From: Proteinivorax hydrogeniformans
GTDB taxonomy: Bacteria > Bacillota > Proteinivoracia > Proteinivoracales > Proteinivoracaceae
Direction of reading: 5' to 3'
Length of the DNA: 64,000 bases
NCBI RefSeq assembly: GCF_040515995.1
Contig: NZ_CP159485.1
Location: 2,542,001 to 2,606,000, forward strand
Below, one piece after another: positions 22,923-28,953 of the stretch. Both the position numbers and the translations under genes were made by a program. Under the pieces are notes generated by a model. It ran no database searches and was not told where the DNA came from. It was given only the letters and a program-made list of their open reading frames with translations. Each line of letters starts with the position of its first letter. Position 1 is the stretch's first letter.

Positions 22923-23201
22923 TTAATAATGTGGTGATGGTGGGTATTCAAGGGATACATGAAACAAGAGTCCAGAGTTTCCGGATACGTAACCATGGTA
23001 CCATTCCCCAGTATTAGGGCAGCGGTATGTTGCATACCCATCGCTATTTATATTGTCATCTGGAATATTATCAACCATTATCCTGAGTGGATACGACATA
23101 GTTTCCACAGGCTCCTCTGCAGCCTCCACAGGCATTGCTCCAAAGAAAAACAATCCCCCTAATACCAATGCTGTAACCATCATCAGTCTTTTCTTAAGCA
23201 T
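22923..23201 (-). CDS. Small secreted protein of unknown function
   Basis: 92 residues with a clear Sec signal peptide (KKR at the N-terminus, hydrophobic core about 8-22, cleavage after PVEA at about 27), leaving a mature chain of about 65 residues. The mature part is acidic, then Tyr/Gly/Pro-rich with a single Cys (YATYRCPNTGEWYHGY) and a PPSPHY end. No family recognised. AAGGGGAG ribosome site. It lies next to the large ABC permeases and the RRNPP locus, so it could be a secreted peptide under peptide-type control; this is inference from position only. Confidence 0.75.
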   Translation of the reverse strand: MLKKRLMMVTALVLGGLFFFGAMPVEAAEEPVETMSYPLRIMVDNIPDDNINSDGYATYRCPNTGEWYHGYVSGNSGLLFHVSLEYPPSPHY

Positions 23202-23407: not shown

Positions 23408-23557
23408 CTAAAAAGACTGGTCTCCAGTTCCATTCCATTCATATTCATACTCCTTATCTTCTGCAATAAGGATTTCGTTGTTTGGCATCATAGCATAGGT
23501 GCTGATAAAAGTAAGAAGTGCTAGAGCAATCGAAAGTAAACCTATTTTTGTTTTAAT
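23408..23557 (-). CDS. Candidate secreted signalling peptide (49 codons, ATT start), divergent from RRNPP regulator
   Basis: The frame follows an exceptionally strong AGGAGGAGG ribosome site, but the codon at the right distance is ATT (23555-23557); no ATG, GTG or TTG fits. The product has KTK, a hydrophobic core GLLSIALALLTFISTYA, and a hydrophilic acidic tail ending EYEYEWNGTGDQSF. This is the architecture of Phr, PapR and NprX-type pro-peptides, which are exported, processed and sensed by RRNPP regulators. It is divergent from exactly such a regulator, 110 bp away. Coding status rests on the ribosome site and signal-like sequence. ATT starts are rare (infC is the known case), so a base error is possible. 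Confidence 0.6.
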   Translation of the reverse strand: MKTKIGLLSIALALLTFISTYAMMPNNEILIAEDKEYEYEWNGTGDQSF

Positions 23558-23597
23558 TATAACCTCCTCCTTTTATTAAGTTTTGCTTTTTTATCGC

Positions 23598-23653
23598 TAA
23601 TGTTATAATAATATGTAAATTCACAAATGTAAAATACTTTAAAGTATCTTTTT
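23598..23653. promoter_or_regulatory. Regulator promoter with palindrome ATACTTTAAAGTAT, copy 1
   Basis: A perfect 14-bp palindrome at 23634-23647 lies just upstream of the regulator ribosome site, downstream of a TATAAT at 23604. The surrounding roughly 50 bp recur almost unchanged at 28322-28376, on the far side of the peptide-maturation cluster. The obvious reading is the regulator's own binding site, used for autoregulation and possibly for the cluster. Confidence 0.6.
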
Positions 23654-23666
23654 AGGGGGAGAGTTT

Positions 23667-24581
23667 ATGCCGTATGAGCTTTTTTTGTTTGGGGAAAAGG
23701 TCAGAGAACTAAGAGAGCAGCAGCTTTTAACTCAATGTGAAATTTCTGATTTATCAGGTGTTAATGTGGAAACTGTTAAAAGATTAGAGCAAGGGAAAGT
23801 TACTCCAAAATTAAAAACCTTAGAAAGTTTATCACCTATATTAAAATGTGATTTAAATAAACTGCTAACTGAGTTTAGAGTGAAAGATTTTCCTAAGTAT
23901 TCACAGACTAAACAAAGGTTGGAGTTAATGTTTGACAGAAATGATCTAGACGGTCTGAGGTTGGAAATGGAGAATCTACAAAGGCTGCTAGATAATGTGA
24001 AAAACGATTTTTCTAAAAAGGAAATCACTCAACTTCTTCTGTTAGCGAAAGGAGTTCTTTTGTATAAAAAAGATAAAAAATATAATAAAGGGCTAGAAGC
24101 ATTGTGTGATGCCATGAAGGTTTTTACCCCTAGCTTTGTTTTGAAGAATTATAAGTTGTGCCATTACTCCCAGCTGGAAATTAGAATTTTAATGAACATA
24201 GGTTTTGTATTACATAAGTTAAAAAGACAGCAGGAGTACGAAAACCTCATGAAATTTTGTTTTGAAAAAGTAGATGAAACCGATAGTATGTATCCGCAAA
24301 TATGCCATAACTTAGCCGGTGTTTATAGAAGAAAGGAAGATTATACAAAAGCATTGCACTACAGCCAATTGGGCATAGATTATTGTATAAAAACCAAAAA
24401 CCTACAGGGTATATCCTTTTTATACTTTGGCAAAGGGGTAGCCCAGTATTATTTAGGAATCGAGGACTATAAAGAAGCTTTTGAAAAAGCGGTGTTTTTT
24501 TGTAAGTTTTTTAAAGAAAGTAACCTTGAAAAGTCAATGACTGAAAACTGCTACAAGTATTTTGGAGTGAAACTACAATAA
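23667..24581 (+). CDS. RRNPP-type transcriptional regulator (HTH_XRE plus TPR)
   Basis: 304 residues. The N-terminal XRE helix-turn-helix (about 9-65) reads VRELREQQLLTQCEISDLSGVNVETVKRLEQGKVTPKL. The rest is all-helical with TPR-like repeats, for example YPQICHNLAGVYRRKEDYTKALHYSQLGIDY (about 208-238) and SFLYFGKGVAQYYLGIEDYKEAFEKAV. This is the layout and length of the Rgg/PlcR/ComR/AimR group, whose TPRs bind short peptides. AGGGGGAG ribosome site. A secreted micro-peptide is divergent and a radical SAM peptide cluster lies downstream on the opposite strand. The family is confident; peptide sensing is inference. Confidence 0.88.
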   Translation: MPYELFLFGEKVRELREQQLLTQCEISDLSGVNVETVKRLEQGKVTPKLKTLESLSPILKCDLNKLLTEFRVKDFPKYSQTKQRLELMFDRNDLDGLRLEMENLQRLLDNVKNDFSKKEITQLLLLAKGVLLYKKDKKYNKGLEALCDAMKVFTPSFVLKNYKLCHYSQLEIRILMNIGFVLHKLKRQQEYENLMKFCFEKVDETDSMYPQICHNLAGVYRRKEDYTKALHYSQLGIDYCIKTKNLQGISFLYFGKGVAQYYLGIEDYKEAFEKAVFFCKFFKESNLEKSMTENCYKYFGVKLQ

Positions 24582-24626
24582 AAAACAAGGGTATTTCTCA
24601 ATGTAGGAAGCACCCTTGTTTTTTTA
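24581..24626 (+). terminator. Terminator of the RRNPP regulator gene
   Basis: AAAACAAGGGT pairs with ACCCTTGTTTT across about 19 nt and is followed by T7. It lies directly behind the stop codon. Confidence 0.85.
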
Positions 24627-24797
24627 TTTATCATTTTCGCTATGAAGCCCGCCACTTTGGTTGAGAGGATTGGAAGTAACTTTAAAAAACATTGTTATGA
24701 AAGCAATAAAAAATATAACCACACTGTTCTTGTGTTCTTATACATTTTTATGAAATATTGATACATTTTTGATAGGCTAAGAACATTTTTTGTCTAA

Positions 24798-25586
24798 CTA
24801 AAAGTAATAACTACCTAAGTTGCCTTTAAACTTTGCTTTATTCAAGAAGTATCTAAATGAAATCCAAGATATTAACACCCAAAGTAAAACGTTTAAGACT
24901 AGCCCCAAAAAGTTCATACTTTGTAATATGTTGTTAGTATCAGATATGATTTCTGCTAACATTTTATTGCCCCATGTCACTGGGATTATATGCAAAATGG
25001 CTCTAAACACTAAAGGAATACTTGCAAAATTTACTATTGCCCCTGTGAAAAATAGCACTATATAACTTAAAACAGCAGAAACAGCACCTATTTTTTTAAA
25101 AACTAAAGTCATGCTAGCTACGAAAAAACCCATAGCATATAGTCCTACAAGAGTGATTGAAAATACTCCAAATACTGCTAACAGTGTCGGCAATGGCATT
25201 ATTAACAATGGCCATGCATTAAAAATAGTTGTCGCTATAGCAAAAAAAGGCACTGCCAATAGTGTCCGTAAAATAAATTGAACAAAAAGGCGGCAAAAAA
25301 ATATCCCTGTTATTTTAGATTTGCACATCATTAACTGCTCAAATGTCCCTAACATTAGCTCTTCTGATATAATGTCGGAAGTCCCACTAATTGCATCTGA
25401 GGAATAGTACCAAAATAGTAGGGCAAATATAAAAACTATTATTGAGCTATAATCTTGTTCATTTACAAAGGAATAAAAAAGTCCAATTACAAAAATAAGA
25501 GTGGTTATTTGTCCTATGACATAGTTGAGCAGATAGTTGCGATAATCAACTGCCAATTTTAATATTTCTGCTTTAAACAAATACAT
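24798..25586 (-). CDS. ABC-2 type permease of the peptide-maturation cluster
   Basis: 262 residues starting MYLFKAEILKLAVDYRNYLLNY, with AAAGGGGCGAG as ribosome site; the frame extends upstream but overlaps the ATPase gene. Six helices are visible, with the ABC-2 amphipathic coupling region SDIISEELMLGTFEQLMMCKSK (E..LGT.E.L). Together with the ATPase 16 nt upstream it forms an exporter that may secrete the modified peptide or give self-immunity. It ends the leftward transcription unit. No terminator hairpin is evident downstream, only AT-rich DNA of about 200 bp facing the regulator's terminator. Confidence 0.9.
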   Translation of the reverse strand: MYLFKAEILKLAVDYRNYLLNYVIGQITTLIFVIGLFYSFVNEQDYSSIIVFIFALLFWYYSSDAISGTSDIISEELMLGTFEQLMMCKSKITGIFFCRLFVQFILRTLLAVPFFAIATTIFNAWPLLIMPLPTLLAVFGVFSITLVGLYAMGFFVASMTLVFKKIGAVSAVLSYIVLFFTGAIVNFASIPLVFRAILHIIPVTWGNKMLAEIISDTNNILQSMNFLGLVLNVLLWVLISWISFRYFLNKAKFKGNLGSYYF

Positions 25587-25602
25587 AATTCTCGCCCCTT
25601 TT

Positions 25603-26511
25603 TTAACTAATAATATCAATAAATATGTCTTTTAAGTCAGGGCTCACCTTTTTAAGTTCTATAATACTCTCCTGTTGTAAAGCAAACTGCAAAACCTTTC
25701 TATCGCCTACAATCTCCCATACATTGTCTCCTAAATCTTTTACTTTCCGTATCCCTTCAAAGTTTTCTAATACTTTTACTTGTAAACTATTAAGTTTTAG
25801 TAACATCATATACATTTCCACTTTTTCACTATAAGAACCCTTTAACTGTTGCATGGTAGTGGATTTAACTATCTTACCGTTATCTATTATTGCTATATTA
25901 TCCGCCACTTCTTCTGCTATGGCAAGGTCATGAGTGGTCAGAATTACTGTCTTTTCTTTGCTTAAATCTAAAATTAGCTTTTTAATTTTAATTCTGTTTT
26001 CTACATCAAGTCCAAGAGTAGGCTCATCTAAAATTAAAATCTGGGGGTCCTTTAACATTGCTAACATTATAGCTACTTTTTGTTGCATTCCCCTTGATAA
26101 TGTTCCTACTTTTGCCTCCCTTTTTTCTACTAAATCAAAAGAAGATAATAGGTCATCAATTATTGAAGCCAATTCCTTTTTACTTTGATTATTTAAATAT
26201 CCAAAATATTTCAGAGTTTCTTCCACAGAAAGGTATTGATATACGTTTCTAGCGCTTTCTAAAACGACGCCAATTTCTTCTTTTGCTATATTTGTATTTT
26301 TAAAAATACTACTGCCGTTGATTAAAACATCACCACTATTAGGACGTATTAAATTGCATATGATTTTTATAAGCGTTGTCTTCCCTGCCCCATTAGGTCC
26401 AAGCAAGGCAAATACACTATTAGGTGGCACTTCTAAATTTATATTATCATTACCTATGACCTTCTTTTTATTTACAACAAACGCCTTAGAGACACCGTTT
26501 ATTTTTATCAT
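25603..26511 (-). CDS. ABC transporter ATPase of the peptide-maturation cluster
   Basis: 302 residues. Walker A is GPNGAGKTTLIKII (about 35-48), Q-loop LESARNVYQYL, signature LSRGMQQKVAIMLAML, Walker B ILILDEPTLGLDVENR and H-loop TTHD. The C-terminal about 80 residues form the extension common in ABC-2 drug and bacteriocin exporters. The ATG overlaps the last codon of the radical SAM gene (ATGA-type junction) with GGAGG upstream, so translation is coupled to the maturase. That coupling supports a role in exporting the modified peptide. Confidence 0.95.
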   Translation of the reverse strand: MIKINGVSKAFVVNKKKVIGNDNINLEVPPNSVFALLGPNGAGKTTLIKIICNLIRPNSGDVLINGSSIFKNTNIAKEEIGVVLESARNVYQYLSVEETLKYFGYLNNQSKKELASIIDDLLSSFDLVEKREAKVGTLSRGMQQKVAIMLAMLKDPQILILDEPTLGLDVENRIKIKKLILDLSKEKTVILTTHDLAIAEEVADNIAIIDNGKIVKSTTMQQLKGSYSEKVEMYMMLLKLNSLQVKVLENFEGIRKVKDLGDNVWEIVGDRKVLQFALQQESIIELKKVSPDLKDIFIDIIS

Positions 26512-27847
26512 ATTAATCCTCCGTCTATTAAGATTTCTTTAACATTTTTCTTATCTAGACTTCTTAAGCAAATAAAGCCATATTTAATCTCTAAGTTTCT
26601 CTTTAAAATATGTAACCATTGACTTGAAACAATTTTACTTTTACAATACCTTTTCATAATATCTTTGTGGTTTACTACAGAGTCAAAGTGACACCCTCCT
26701 ACACAAAGGGGAACAAAAGGGCAAGCCTCTTTTAAACATTCTTTCCACTTATTAATATTTAGCAGTTTTGTATAAGCTGGCTTAAAGCCTTTAAAAATAT
26801 CTCCCACCTCAAACTTTTCCCTGCCTATCAGTGATATACAATTATATAATTTTCCGTCAGAGTTAATCACAACCCCATTAGCATTATGTGCTATACACGG
26901 GCATAAGCTAGTCTCATCTAGCGTATTAATTTTAATTTCTAGTAAATAATCATAATACTCATTCAATATTGTGCCCGCCTCATTAAAAGTGAAGTGATTT
27001 TTCTTTGTAAAATCATTTGATAAAGTGTTTACTATCGGGGCGAGGTATATCATGACATTACTCATATCTATTTCATTTTTTAGAAATTCTATTAAATTTT
27101 TAACTTTTCTTTTATAGTTATTGCTTTTGTCAATACTAATTCTTATTGAAGTTGCAGGTACAATCTTTTGTAGTTCGTGTATATTTTTAATTATATCATC
27201 AAAAGTCCCTACCCCATTAGAATACATTCTTCTCTGATTGTGAATTTCTCTAGGACCATCAATCGTAACCTGGACACCTCTTAAGCCGCTTGAAACCAGT
27301 TTTGATATTGCATACTCGCTAAAAAAAGTCCCGTTTGTAATAAGAAACAAATCTAATTTTACACCATATTTTTCAAATAATTTTTTGAGTGACTCACTTA
27401 ATTTAAGTAATAGATCTGTCTCAACCATTGGCTCCCCGCCATACAATGTTATTGAAGCTGTTGTAAATGTCTCTAGCTTAAAATTTTCTGTGAAGAATTT
27501 TAAGATTTGATCGATATTTATATTAGGCATCTTTATTTTTTTAATCCCATCTTCAAAACAATAAACACATTTTAGGTTGCAATCTGTTGTAACTGCTATT
27601 GTAGCTTCTAATTGATCACTATTAAATTTTTTGTATTATAAAAATGTTCAAAAAGCAAGTCCTCATCAGTGCACCCATCCATTATTATCAAATCATTATC
27701 ATCATTAACTTCTTTTTCATGTAATAAGTTAACAATCTCCTTCTTTTCAAATAAACAAACTGCTTTAGTTAAAGTATTAAATACCAAAATTCTACCTCTA
27801 TTATCTTCAAAATATACATTGAATTTAGATAACTTTTTATTTTCCAT
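26508..27847 (-). CDS. Radical SAM/SPASM peptide maturase, split by a -1 frameshift at an A6 run
   Basis: The conceptual 446-residue protein needs one frame change at 27627-27632 (A6 on the coding strand). Before it lies the N-terminal domain (MENKKLSKFNVYFEDNRGRI, FNTLTKAV). After it come SDQLEATIAVTTDCNLKCVYC, with the [4Fe-4S] CxxxCxxC at about 90-97, YGGEP near 136-140, VTIDGPREIHN, and a SPASM region with GKLYNCISLIG and CPFVPLCVGGC. The C-terminal frame alone has no start codon before the CxxxCxxC motif. Either the assembly misses one A, or the ribosome or polymerase slips, or the gene is dead. SPASM maturases install crosslinks on ribosomal peptides, here probably the 34-aa precursor just upstream. 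Confidence 0.85.
27608..27847 (-). CDS. N-terminal fragment of the split radical SAM maturase
   Basis: Read alone it is a 79-residue protein whose last seven residues (NLIVIN region) are the out-of-frame read-through past the A6 run. Its body matches the typical N-terminal domain of SPASM maturases, and the other frame continues the homology without a gap, so it should not be treated as an independent gene. Its ATG follows a GGGGG ribosome site 58 nt after the precursor stop. Confidence 0.7.
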   Translation of the reverse strand: MENKKLSKFNVYFEDNRGRILVFNTLTKAVCLFEKKEIVNLLHEKEVNDDNDLIIMDGCTDEDLLFEHFYNTKNLIVIN

Positions 27848-27904
27848 ATTAACCCCCTGCTATTTTTATAGAGGCTACAATATTGTAACCTCTATAAAAT
27901 AATA

Positions 27905-28009
27905 CTACCTACTTTTTCCCCCACAGATCACTCTACCACCACAAGGACTAAGAGCATGTGATCTAATAGCTAAGCTTGAAAGCTTAGTGCCTTCTTTTAA
28001 TCTTGTCAT
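27905..28009 (-). CDS. Candidate RiPP precursor peptide (34 aa)
   Basis: Too short for usual gene calling, but it has a strong AAAGGGGGGAG ribosome site. The product MTRLKEGTKLSSLAIRSHAL reads as a charged leader and is followed by SPCGGRVICGGKSR, a compact core with two Cys and two Gly-Gly pairs. It lies 58 nt upstream of the radical SAM/SPASM maturase in the same direction, the standard order for sactipeptide, ranthipeptide or other radical-SAM RiPP loci. I cannot assign the core to a named class. A near-perfect 18-bp inverted repeat (27970-27987) within the leader codons may form an mRNA hairpin. Confidence 0.72.
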   Translation of the reverse strand: MTRLKEGTKLSSLAIRSHALSPCGGRVICGGKSR

Positions 28010-28163
28010 TAAACTCCCCCCTTTCTTGTATAGTTTTTAGGGCATTGCAAAGCTTCACAACACCTGTTACAAAAGCTTTTATATCTATAATTTTAAAGCC
28101 CCGACTTTTATAGAATTTATATAGTAATAAAATATAAGATCGATTATAAGGAGGGGTGAAAAC

Positions 28164-28274
28164 ATGAAAAAGTGCAAACATTTTTTTGCTAATTTCAATG
28201 AAGAATTTGATGAGTTGCCAATTCTAAGCAACCTACCTTGGTTGCTGTTTAGTGATTCTTATCACATAAATTAA
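28164..28274 (+). CDS. 36-residue peptide divergent from the RiPP precursor
   Basis: The frame starts 7 nt after a strong AAGGAGGGG. The product begins MKKCKHFFANFNEEFDEL and ends PILSNLPWLLFSDSYHIN. It has a charged N-terminus and a hydrophobic C-terminal half, but no clear signal peptide. It could be a second precursor, a leader or an immunity peptide. Only the ribosome site, start and location argue for coding. Confidence 0.5.
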   Translation: MKKCKHFFANFNEEFDELPILSNLPWLLFSDSYHIN

Positions 28275-28321
28275 TCCTTGTTATAATCTCCCCCCCCTTG
28301 CAAGTTTCTCTTTTCACTCTT

Positions 28322-28376
28322 TAATGTTATAGTAATAAGTAAATTCGAAAATGTAAAATACTTTAAAGTATCTTTT
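28322..28376. promoter_or_regulatory. Second copy of the regulator-promoter segment with ATACTTTAAAGTAT
   Basis: Over about 50 bp this matches the promoter of the RRNPP gene (23598-23653) with only a few changes, including the perfect palindrome at 28358-28371. A further palindrome AAGTATACTT follows at about 28390. No regulator gene follows here, so it is either a decayed duplicate or an operator that lets the regulator act on this end of the cluster. Confidence 0.6.
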
Positions 28377-28921
28377 TCATAGGATTGCAAAGTATACTTA
28401 AAAAATCTTTGTTTAGGGTAAGGTAGCCAAGTATTGCTAAAGCTACTGGTATCACTTTTCAGAAAACTCAAAGAAGGTGGAAGTATTTATATATTTTGTG
28501 CATTATTTCTATCAGGCGGTCTAAGATTTTACTATCGCTTTAAAGAGTTTTGAGGGAGGGAAGTTTATGCCCAACCCTGAACAGACCGGAGCATGGTTTT
28601 GCTTACGGACATCTTCCTATCGAAACCCTTGTATCGCACCCTACAGGTATTTTGTAGCGACATTGCCAAAAATGCCAGCCATATACTGATGGGTTGACAC
28701 AGAGGTCAACCCTACCTCTACAAGGGGTGGGTCACTCAATTGGTGCTAAAATACATATCAGTCTTGTCATTTTGGACGCAGTGAAGAATCTATGGTTTTC
28801 CCACTTCCCACCTCCCATTACCCACTTCCAACCCAACTTCCCACCTCCCATTACCCACTTCCCACTTCCAATTACCCACTTCCCACTTCCAACTTCTCAC
28901 CTCCCACTACCGATCCCAATT
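28377..28921. repeat. Intergenic repeats, including a C/G-rich minisatellite
   Basis: No convincing gene; a 40-codon frame at 28567-28689 has a good ribosome site but no recognisable product. From about 28692 come fragments of the dispersed families seen elsewhere (GACACAGAGGTCAACCCTAC; half of the GTCATTCTGA..GAAGAATCTATGG element at 28766-28800). From 28796 to 28920 there are imperfect tandem units of CCCACTTCC, CCCACCTCC and CCCATTACC, G-rich on the reverse strand with many GGG runs. Confidence 0.6.
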
Positions 28922-28953
28922 AAAAAAAGGTGACCAAAAGGTCACCTTTTTTT
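28922..28953 (-). terminator. Terminator of the NIF3-like gene
   Basis: AAAAAAAGGTGACC and GGTCACCTTTTTTT form a perfect stem with a 4-nt loop, beside the stop codon. It is symmetrical and could act in both directions. Confidence 0.92.

Follow-up and report, generated by a model that had tools for sequence, protein, structure and literature searches.

What does the regulator gene that stands beside a small peptide-modification operon in this DNA do there? The window, the whole stretch that was analysed, is G000:C1:2542001-2606000, 64 kb of the single-contig, 2.83-Mb genome (G000) of Proteinivorax hydrogeniformans. It holds an RRNPP-type regulator, a divergent micro-peptide frame, and an operon for a ribosomally synthesised and post-translationally modified peptide (RiPP). 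We consider it fairly probable that the locus is a peptide-signalled radical S-adenosylmethionine (radical SAM) RiPP island. The regulator, divergent frame, precursor, maturase, ATPase, permease and shared promoter sequence of a preliminary description were all found, approximately where it had placed them. They are listed below with the evidence for each; G001 is a genome of the same genus and G144 a relative with the same operon.

23667-24581, plus strand: PlcR-like RRNPP regulator, 304 aa, with an XRE helix-turn-helix (HTH) and a TPR domain (HTH_3 above cut-off; AlphaFold; PlcR by profile and fold).
23408-23557, minus strand: secreted micro-peptide, a pro-pheromone candidate, 49 codons, ATT start, IKTKIGLLSIALALLTFISTYAMMPNNEILIAEDKEYEYEWNGTGDQSF (G001 orthologue; comparable peptides beside homologous regulators).
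23625-23648, minus strand: predicted operator box copy 1, GATACTTTAAAGTATTTTACATTT, upstream of the micro-peptide promoter (exact genome search; dyad).
28349-28372, minus strand: predicted operator box copy 2, GATACTTTAAAGTATTTTACATTT, upstream of the RiPP operon promoter (exact genome search).
28281-28571, minus strand: apparent relic of a second micro-peptide/regulator intergenic region, both genes gone (92% identity to a G001 stretch).
27905-28009, minus strand: RiPP precursor, 34 aa, MTRLKEGTKLSSLAIRSHALSPCGGRVICGGKSR, with C-terminus SPCGGRVICGGKSR (C-terminus conserved in the G144 precursor).
27608-27847, minus strand: N-terminal domain of the maturase, 79 aa, severed from the catalytic part (alignment with the intact homologue's N-terminal part).
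27627-27632, minus strand: six-A run at the frame break (sequence reading).
26508-27614, minus strand: radical SAM/SPASM catalytic part of the maturase, -1 frame, with CxxxCxxC (Radical_SAM and SPASM models above cut-off).
25603-26511, minus strand: ATP-binding cassette (ABC) transporter ATPase (ABC_tran above cut-off; homologue in the G144 island).
24798-25619, minus strand: ABC-2 type permease (ABC2_membrane just below cut-off; homologue in the G144 island).

The regulator is a member of the PlcR-like branch of the RRNPP receptors and has their general build, with an XRE-type HTH at the N-terminus and, behind it, a TPR domain for peptide binding. That HTH-TPR build had been recognised earlier and stands; the likeness to Rgg drawn at the same time does not, as PlcR is nearer by both profile and fold. 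HTH_3 was matched above the Pfam cut-off and is also hit by 21 of 21 members of the regulator family (an alignment of 21 collected homologues), while the TPR and RNPP_C matches fell below theirs (RNPP_C 22.1 against 26.5 bits). The AlphaFold model (predicted local distance difference test score 92.1) is all-helical and TPR-like, and its fold matches include PlcR, Rgg, ComR and Rap. PlcR was the closest solved relative by the family profile (E 1.2e-9), and along the whole chain, with profile positions 7-297 against PlcR 5-285. The top structure match from Foldseek and VIA-align was the PlcR-PapR7-DNA complex 3u3w (Z 23.7, root-mean-square deviation 2.8 A, 271 residues), and the next match outside PlcR had a Z of 18.2. 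In the profile alignment the family-invariant Asn215 falls on PlcR Asn201, which we take to be part of the peptide site; a literature search on PlcR Asn201 found nothing. The orthologue in G001 is 92% identical in the family alignment and in the syntenic place, and the ratio of nonsynonymous to synonymous substitution rates (dN/dS) of 0.22 between the two points to purifying selection. Phage and plasmid collections gave no match to the regulator.

Adjoining the receptor gene is a gene for a small secreted propeptide, its signal peptide, like all those mentioned here, having been assigned by eye. The C-terminal region of this micro-peptide carries an EYEYEW motif and includes the stretch AEDKEYEYEWNGTGDQSF. 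The orthologous frame in G001 also has 49 codons, with ATG where the window has ATT, and reads MKTKLGLLSIALAFATFISLNAMQLDNEIIIVEDEEPEYEWNTIGNQLL; with a dN/dS of 0.47, it bears out the conservation of the frame as coding sequence and suggests that the body of the peptide is under mild constraint. The signal-peptide character noted earlier for this divergent frame was seen again. An ordinary start codon was not, and the short hydrophobic pheromone (SHP) type was rejected, the 49-codon propeptide being of Sec type (by eye) with an acidic-W/aromatic core.

Most of the 21 regulator homologues have a divergent secreted micro-peptide, intact or damaged, with an acidic-aromatic core that is either [DE]xYEW/IEWH or GEEDIPR in up to eight copies. 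Such peptides stand beside the regulators of the window, of L039 (the G001 locus) and of loci L010, L042, L045, L047, L048 and L057, with variant or repeated forms at L009, L052 and L054. Beside paralogous regulators the peptides end in ...DEDYEWFSYTSNL (L010), ...DDDDYEWNSIENEII (L042), ...DPVIEWHQYNGTNSI (L045) and ...SDIYEWHMYDEFI (L048); the peptide of L085, from the class of G257, ends in ...GEEDLIRWHSVIPGR, and that of L050, in ...GEKDIIDWHSLVVDK, is encoded a few kilobases away from its own regulator. Four propeptides repeat the core: DEDIEWHN twice at L047 (L047:315-500), GEEDIPRxF eight times at L054 (9358-9804), GEDDIPRIW twice at L057 (9619), and at least three copies at L052 (1-330). 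Repeated pheromone cores within one propeptide are known from RRNPP systems (PMC9765709). The regulator tree splits the acidic-W and GEEDIPRxF core types, and core type tracks regulator clade.

The proposed link between regulator and operon at this locus is a shared promoter sequence, which had been noticed earlier and was confirmed. It includes the 24-mer GATACTTTAAAGTATTTTACATTT, which occurs exactly twice in the 2.83-Mb genome, with no other site within three mismatches and, as a control, no match in the genome for the reversed 24-mer. Each copy has a TATAAC-type -10 downstream of it; the first precedes the micro-peptide (P1), and the second faces the RiPP operon (P2). The box is identical at P1 and P2, yet the leader sequence behind it has diverged. 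Dyads occupy similar sites in other intergenic regions of the family, such as CACCCCGATTTTAATCGGGGTG in L009 and CAAGGGACATCAATGTCCCTTG in L042, and six of these family dyads have a shuffle p below 0.05. Copy 2 lies within a 291-bp stretch that is 92% identical to the G001 DNA between the micro-peptide start and the regulator start codon. We infer that a duplicated module may have lost its own signal and receptor, leaving its promoter before the RiPP operon.

The operon itself has the makings of a radical SAM RiPP cluster, a SPASM enzyme beside a short precursor, and the catalytic part scores above the cut-offs of the SPASM model and Radical_SAM. Among 398 genomes of the phylum there were only two copies of the maturase at E <= 1e-48, in the window and in G144 (45% identical); no further regulator or maturase copy was found around G144's class, and viral contigs held no relative of the maturase. 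In G144 nothing of the island is missing: regulator and secreted peptide, precursor (...CDGCPGRMVCGGKSR) and intact maturase, and ATPase with permease all lie in a single array. The two precursors share the C-terminus CxGRxxCGGKSR, which bears out conservation of this frame as coding sequence, and that of G144 also lies directly upstream of its maturase. A maturase cluster in relatives without the regulator and micro-peptide had been named beforehand as evidence that would speak against the system; none was seen, and the sole relative found with an orthologous operon has both. The ABC ATPase and permease described beside the maturase were confirmed, both with homologues in the G144 island.

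Attempts to place the maturase in a named family gave no assignment. The nearest NCBIfam families, for the window's full catalytic part and for the intact G144 homologue, were geopeptide, CefB, TIGR04463 and PapB, with scores far short of the equivalog cut-offs (191/400, 158/600 and 148/525 bits). Membership of these families and of Clo7bot was rejected, the curated equivalog cut-offs not being reached. The 79-aa part has a weak match to the start of the CefB profile, and no known precursor family in NCBIfam was matched. Plasmid matches to the maturase (29-33% identical) were set aside as generic SPASM enzymes, and two Lachnospiraceae loci (L004 and L005, 36%) were dropped for having other neighbours.

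The pairing of this regulator family with radical SAM enzymes extends beyond the two islands. Across 13 genomes, once one SCIFF-like maturase per genome had been set aside (assigned by length and score), 9 of the 29 remaining SPASM genes had a family regulator within 5 kb, where 0.26 would be expected. The Poisson value of 1e-11 should not be read as a strict probability, since possession of the regulator was the criterion for choosing the genomes and paralogous loci are among those counted. Different RiPP clusters adjoin paralogous regulators (L010, L048, L049, and three in L078), and in G144, L010 and L048 the micro-peptide is followed immediately by the RiPP genes. The L078 locus (L078:900-18900, in G408) packs three radical SAM clusters into 18 kb, each beside a regulator and with differing precursors. 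Elsewhere, a regulator-adjacent SPASM gene (L048:4964-8122) is interrupted by a transposase-like insertion, and two others (L040:9188-10495 and L050:4896-5184) are truncated remnants. With these three genes broken or truncated, turnover of the RiPP cargo appears to be rapid.

Gene content, homology, synteny, the shared box and the family-wide pairing were seen directly, and from them we infer the identity of the signal, its activation of the operon, the chemistry and the export, as follows. The micro-peptide would leave the cell by the Sec route and be cut back to a short signal from its C-terminal end, around EYEYEW. The signal would be re-imported by an oligopeptide permease (seven oligopeptide-binding proteins are encoded in the genome) and would then bind to the regulator's TPR domain. 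The regulator would then act at the ACTTTAAAGT dyad before two promoters, that of its own signal gene, giving positive feedback in the fashion of PlcR/PapR, and that of the RiPP operon. The operon would make the 34-residue precursor, in which the two Cys of C-G-G-R-V-I-C-G-G-K-S-R are probable thioether substrates for the SPASM maturase, and the ABC pair would export the product.

Several observations weigh against this proposal. The micro-peptide frame starts with ATT after AGGAGG, and upstream of the ATT there is no in-frame ATG, GTG or TTG. A radical SAM/SPASM maturase had been described, and the enzyme is indeed present, but it is split by a -1 frameshift: 27608-27847 (79 aa) is followed, after six A, by 26508-27614 in the -1 frame. 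That the catalytic part has a start of its own was rejected, as its frame holds no ATG, GTG or TTG from the preceding stop up to CxxxCxxC. The syntenic G001 locus has an orthologous regulator and peptide without the RiPP operon, so control of a RiPP is not necessarily the module's role. Several family regulators have no radical SAM neighbour, and L041, L043, L051, L053 and L056 have no recognisable micro-peptide partner (signal peptides by eye). Judged as dyads alone, the window's two box copies have shuffle p of 0.13 and 0.20, and activation by the regulator, rather than repression, is assumed by analogy. For the joint system as first described, the frameshift, the ATT start and the G001 locus thus count against it; the conserved small frames, the co-occurrence in G144 and a SPASM association far above chance count for it. 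As a side observation, the RiPP operon's place in G001 is taken by a three-gene ABC transporter operon (L039:9620-13123), beyond which lies a piece of about 100 bp (L039:13025-13123) that is 80% identical to the 3' part of the regulator.

The rival that survives best, and which we slightly favour for this genome, is that the island is a decaying remnant, in which the receptor is kept, the signal genes and maturase are being lost, and no modified peptide is made. The G144 maturase is a single 456-aa frame that aligns across the window's break, and the window's catalytic part lacks an in-frame start. The ATG of the signal gene has become ATT, and three further signal genes beside family regulators are damaged in the same genome: one has a stop at codon 3 (L046:7700-8129), one a frameshift with loss of the core (L044:8000-8420), and one keeps the signal peptide alone, beside a truncated regulator (L058:8400-8891). 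G001 has intact orthologues of the L044 and L046 signal genes, and, for three of the four lesioned signal genes, the neighbouring regulator has an orthologue in the same genus that stands beside an undamaged signal gene; it looks as if signals were lost and receptors kept. Against decay stand the purifying selection on the regulator, the mild constraint on the micro-peptide body, the two identical and intact boxes, and the open frames of both ATPase and permease. The window's copy is probably decaying, and with a frameshifted maturase and an ATT start its system is likely crippled or weakly expressed. Decay here is compatible with the signalled-island explanation for the family, as the architecture would still describe the ancestor.

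An assembly error, with the maturase intact, is unlikely. The break does fall at a homopolymer, but a comparison of 142 orthologous genes with G001, over 464 kb of this genome, turned up a single frameshifted gene, and the 30 orthologues in the window include none. So low a background, which also speaks for decay, makes a genuine lesion likelier than noise at the break. Still less likely is that the regulator has no functional tie to the RiPP operon and that the box they share merely reflects the duplication of an intergenic region. The P2 region does appear to be a relic of a micro-peptide/regulator intergenic region, so the box could be there by descent; however, the box stayed fully identical while the leader behind it diverged, P2 is directed towards the RiPP operon, the micro-peptide is immediately followed by RiPP genes at three other loci, and nearly a third of the SPASM genes lie near family regulators. 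Least probable is that ribosomal or transcriptional slippage at the A-run bypasses the break and gives low or phase-variable maturase: ACA AAA AAT TTA does contain in-frame slippery-type heptamers (A AAA AAT, A AAT TTA) with a stop a few codons on, but no stable downstream structure (z = 0.42) and no Shine-Dalgarno-like stimulator close upstream were found, six A is short for transcriptional slippage, and the unbroken G144 homologue does not conserve the site, so a programmed -1 frameshift was rated improbable.

Among known systems, PlcR/PapR of the Bacillus cereus group is alike in having the same fold along the whole length, a small exported propeptide beside the receptor gene, and a dyad box upstream of regulated promoters. 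PapR cores (ADLPFEF) combine an acidic residue with an E-aromatic end, as the cores of the window family do. The PlcR box is TATGNAnnnnTNCATA, and the window box differs from it. The cargo is a radical SAM RiPP instead of the PlcR virulence regulon, and sequence identity is about 16%. In the window and at the family loci the propeptide gene is divergent from the receptor gene, whereas in the Bacillales layout it is downstream and co-directional (PMC9765709).

In streptococci, Rgg/SHP pairs control radical SAM RiPPs such as tryglysin (PMC8092268; review PMC13361665). The window shares with these the unit of RRNPP regulator, short peptide pheromone and radical SAM RiPP cluster, and differs in that its regulator is nearer PlcR and its precursor and maturase come from other families. 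In the RRNPP_detector survey, 196 biosynthetic clusters stand beside candidate RRNPP systems, RiPPs being the commonest; the bacterial families it lists are mostly Streptococcaceae and Bacillaceae, 7 of the clusters are in Clostridiaceae, and the main text has no mention of radical SAM (PMC10075063). Another study describes receptors with five TPRs, PlcR among them, as associated for the most part with biosynthetic clusters (PMC12700828). A literature search on Thermoanaerobacter quorum-sensed RiPPs found nothing. As Rgg/SHP-controlled radical SAM RiPPs and RRNPP-adjacent clusters are already published, the concept of RRNPP-controlled RiPPs is established. As far as the readable texts go, what is new is a PlcR-like family with divergent acidic-aromatic pro-pheromones and a repeated link to radical SAM RiPPs in clostridia, together with a family of CGGKSR precursors and the way in which signals have been lost; single members may already be listed in supplementary tables of the surveys.

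A few other features surround the locus. A 92-aa secreted protein (22923-23201, minus strand) is encoded downstream of the micro-peptide and is near-identical in G001, where DNA related to its gene occurs several times in the region. A low-complexity GGAAGTTGGAAGTGGGA-like repeat (28770-28930) separates the RiPP promoter relic from the gene that follows, and G001 has similar sequence at the matching position. Antisense to the RiPP leader is a 36-aa plus-strand frame (28164-28274) with a strong ribosome-binding site and no family match in NCBIfam and Pfam profile searches.

The finding extends RRNPP control of radical SAM RiPPs from the streptococcal Rgg/SHP systems to a PlcR-like family in anaerobic clostridia. 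The candidate pheromones (EYEYEW, DEDYEWFSY, DIEWHN and GEEDIPRIF repeats) are synthesisable and could be used to wake silent RiPP clusters. Cargo varies among loci, and the lesioned signal genes make signal loss with receptor retention directly testable. Tentatively, receptor, divergent pro-pheromone and operator may be a transferable control cassette of a PlcR-like family present in several clostridial classes, repeatedly coupled to unrelated radical SAM RiPP operons, with an operator/pheromone code that diversified with receptor clade and with pheromone genes that are damaged in the window's genome while most receptors remain. If so, this genome would offer a natural example of lost signals or of eavesdropping.

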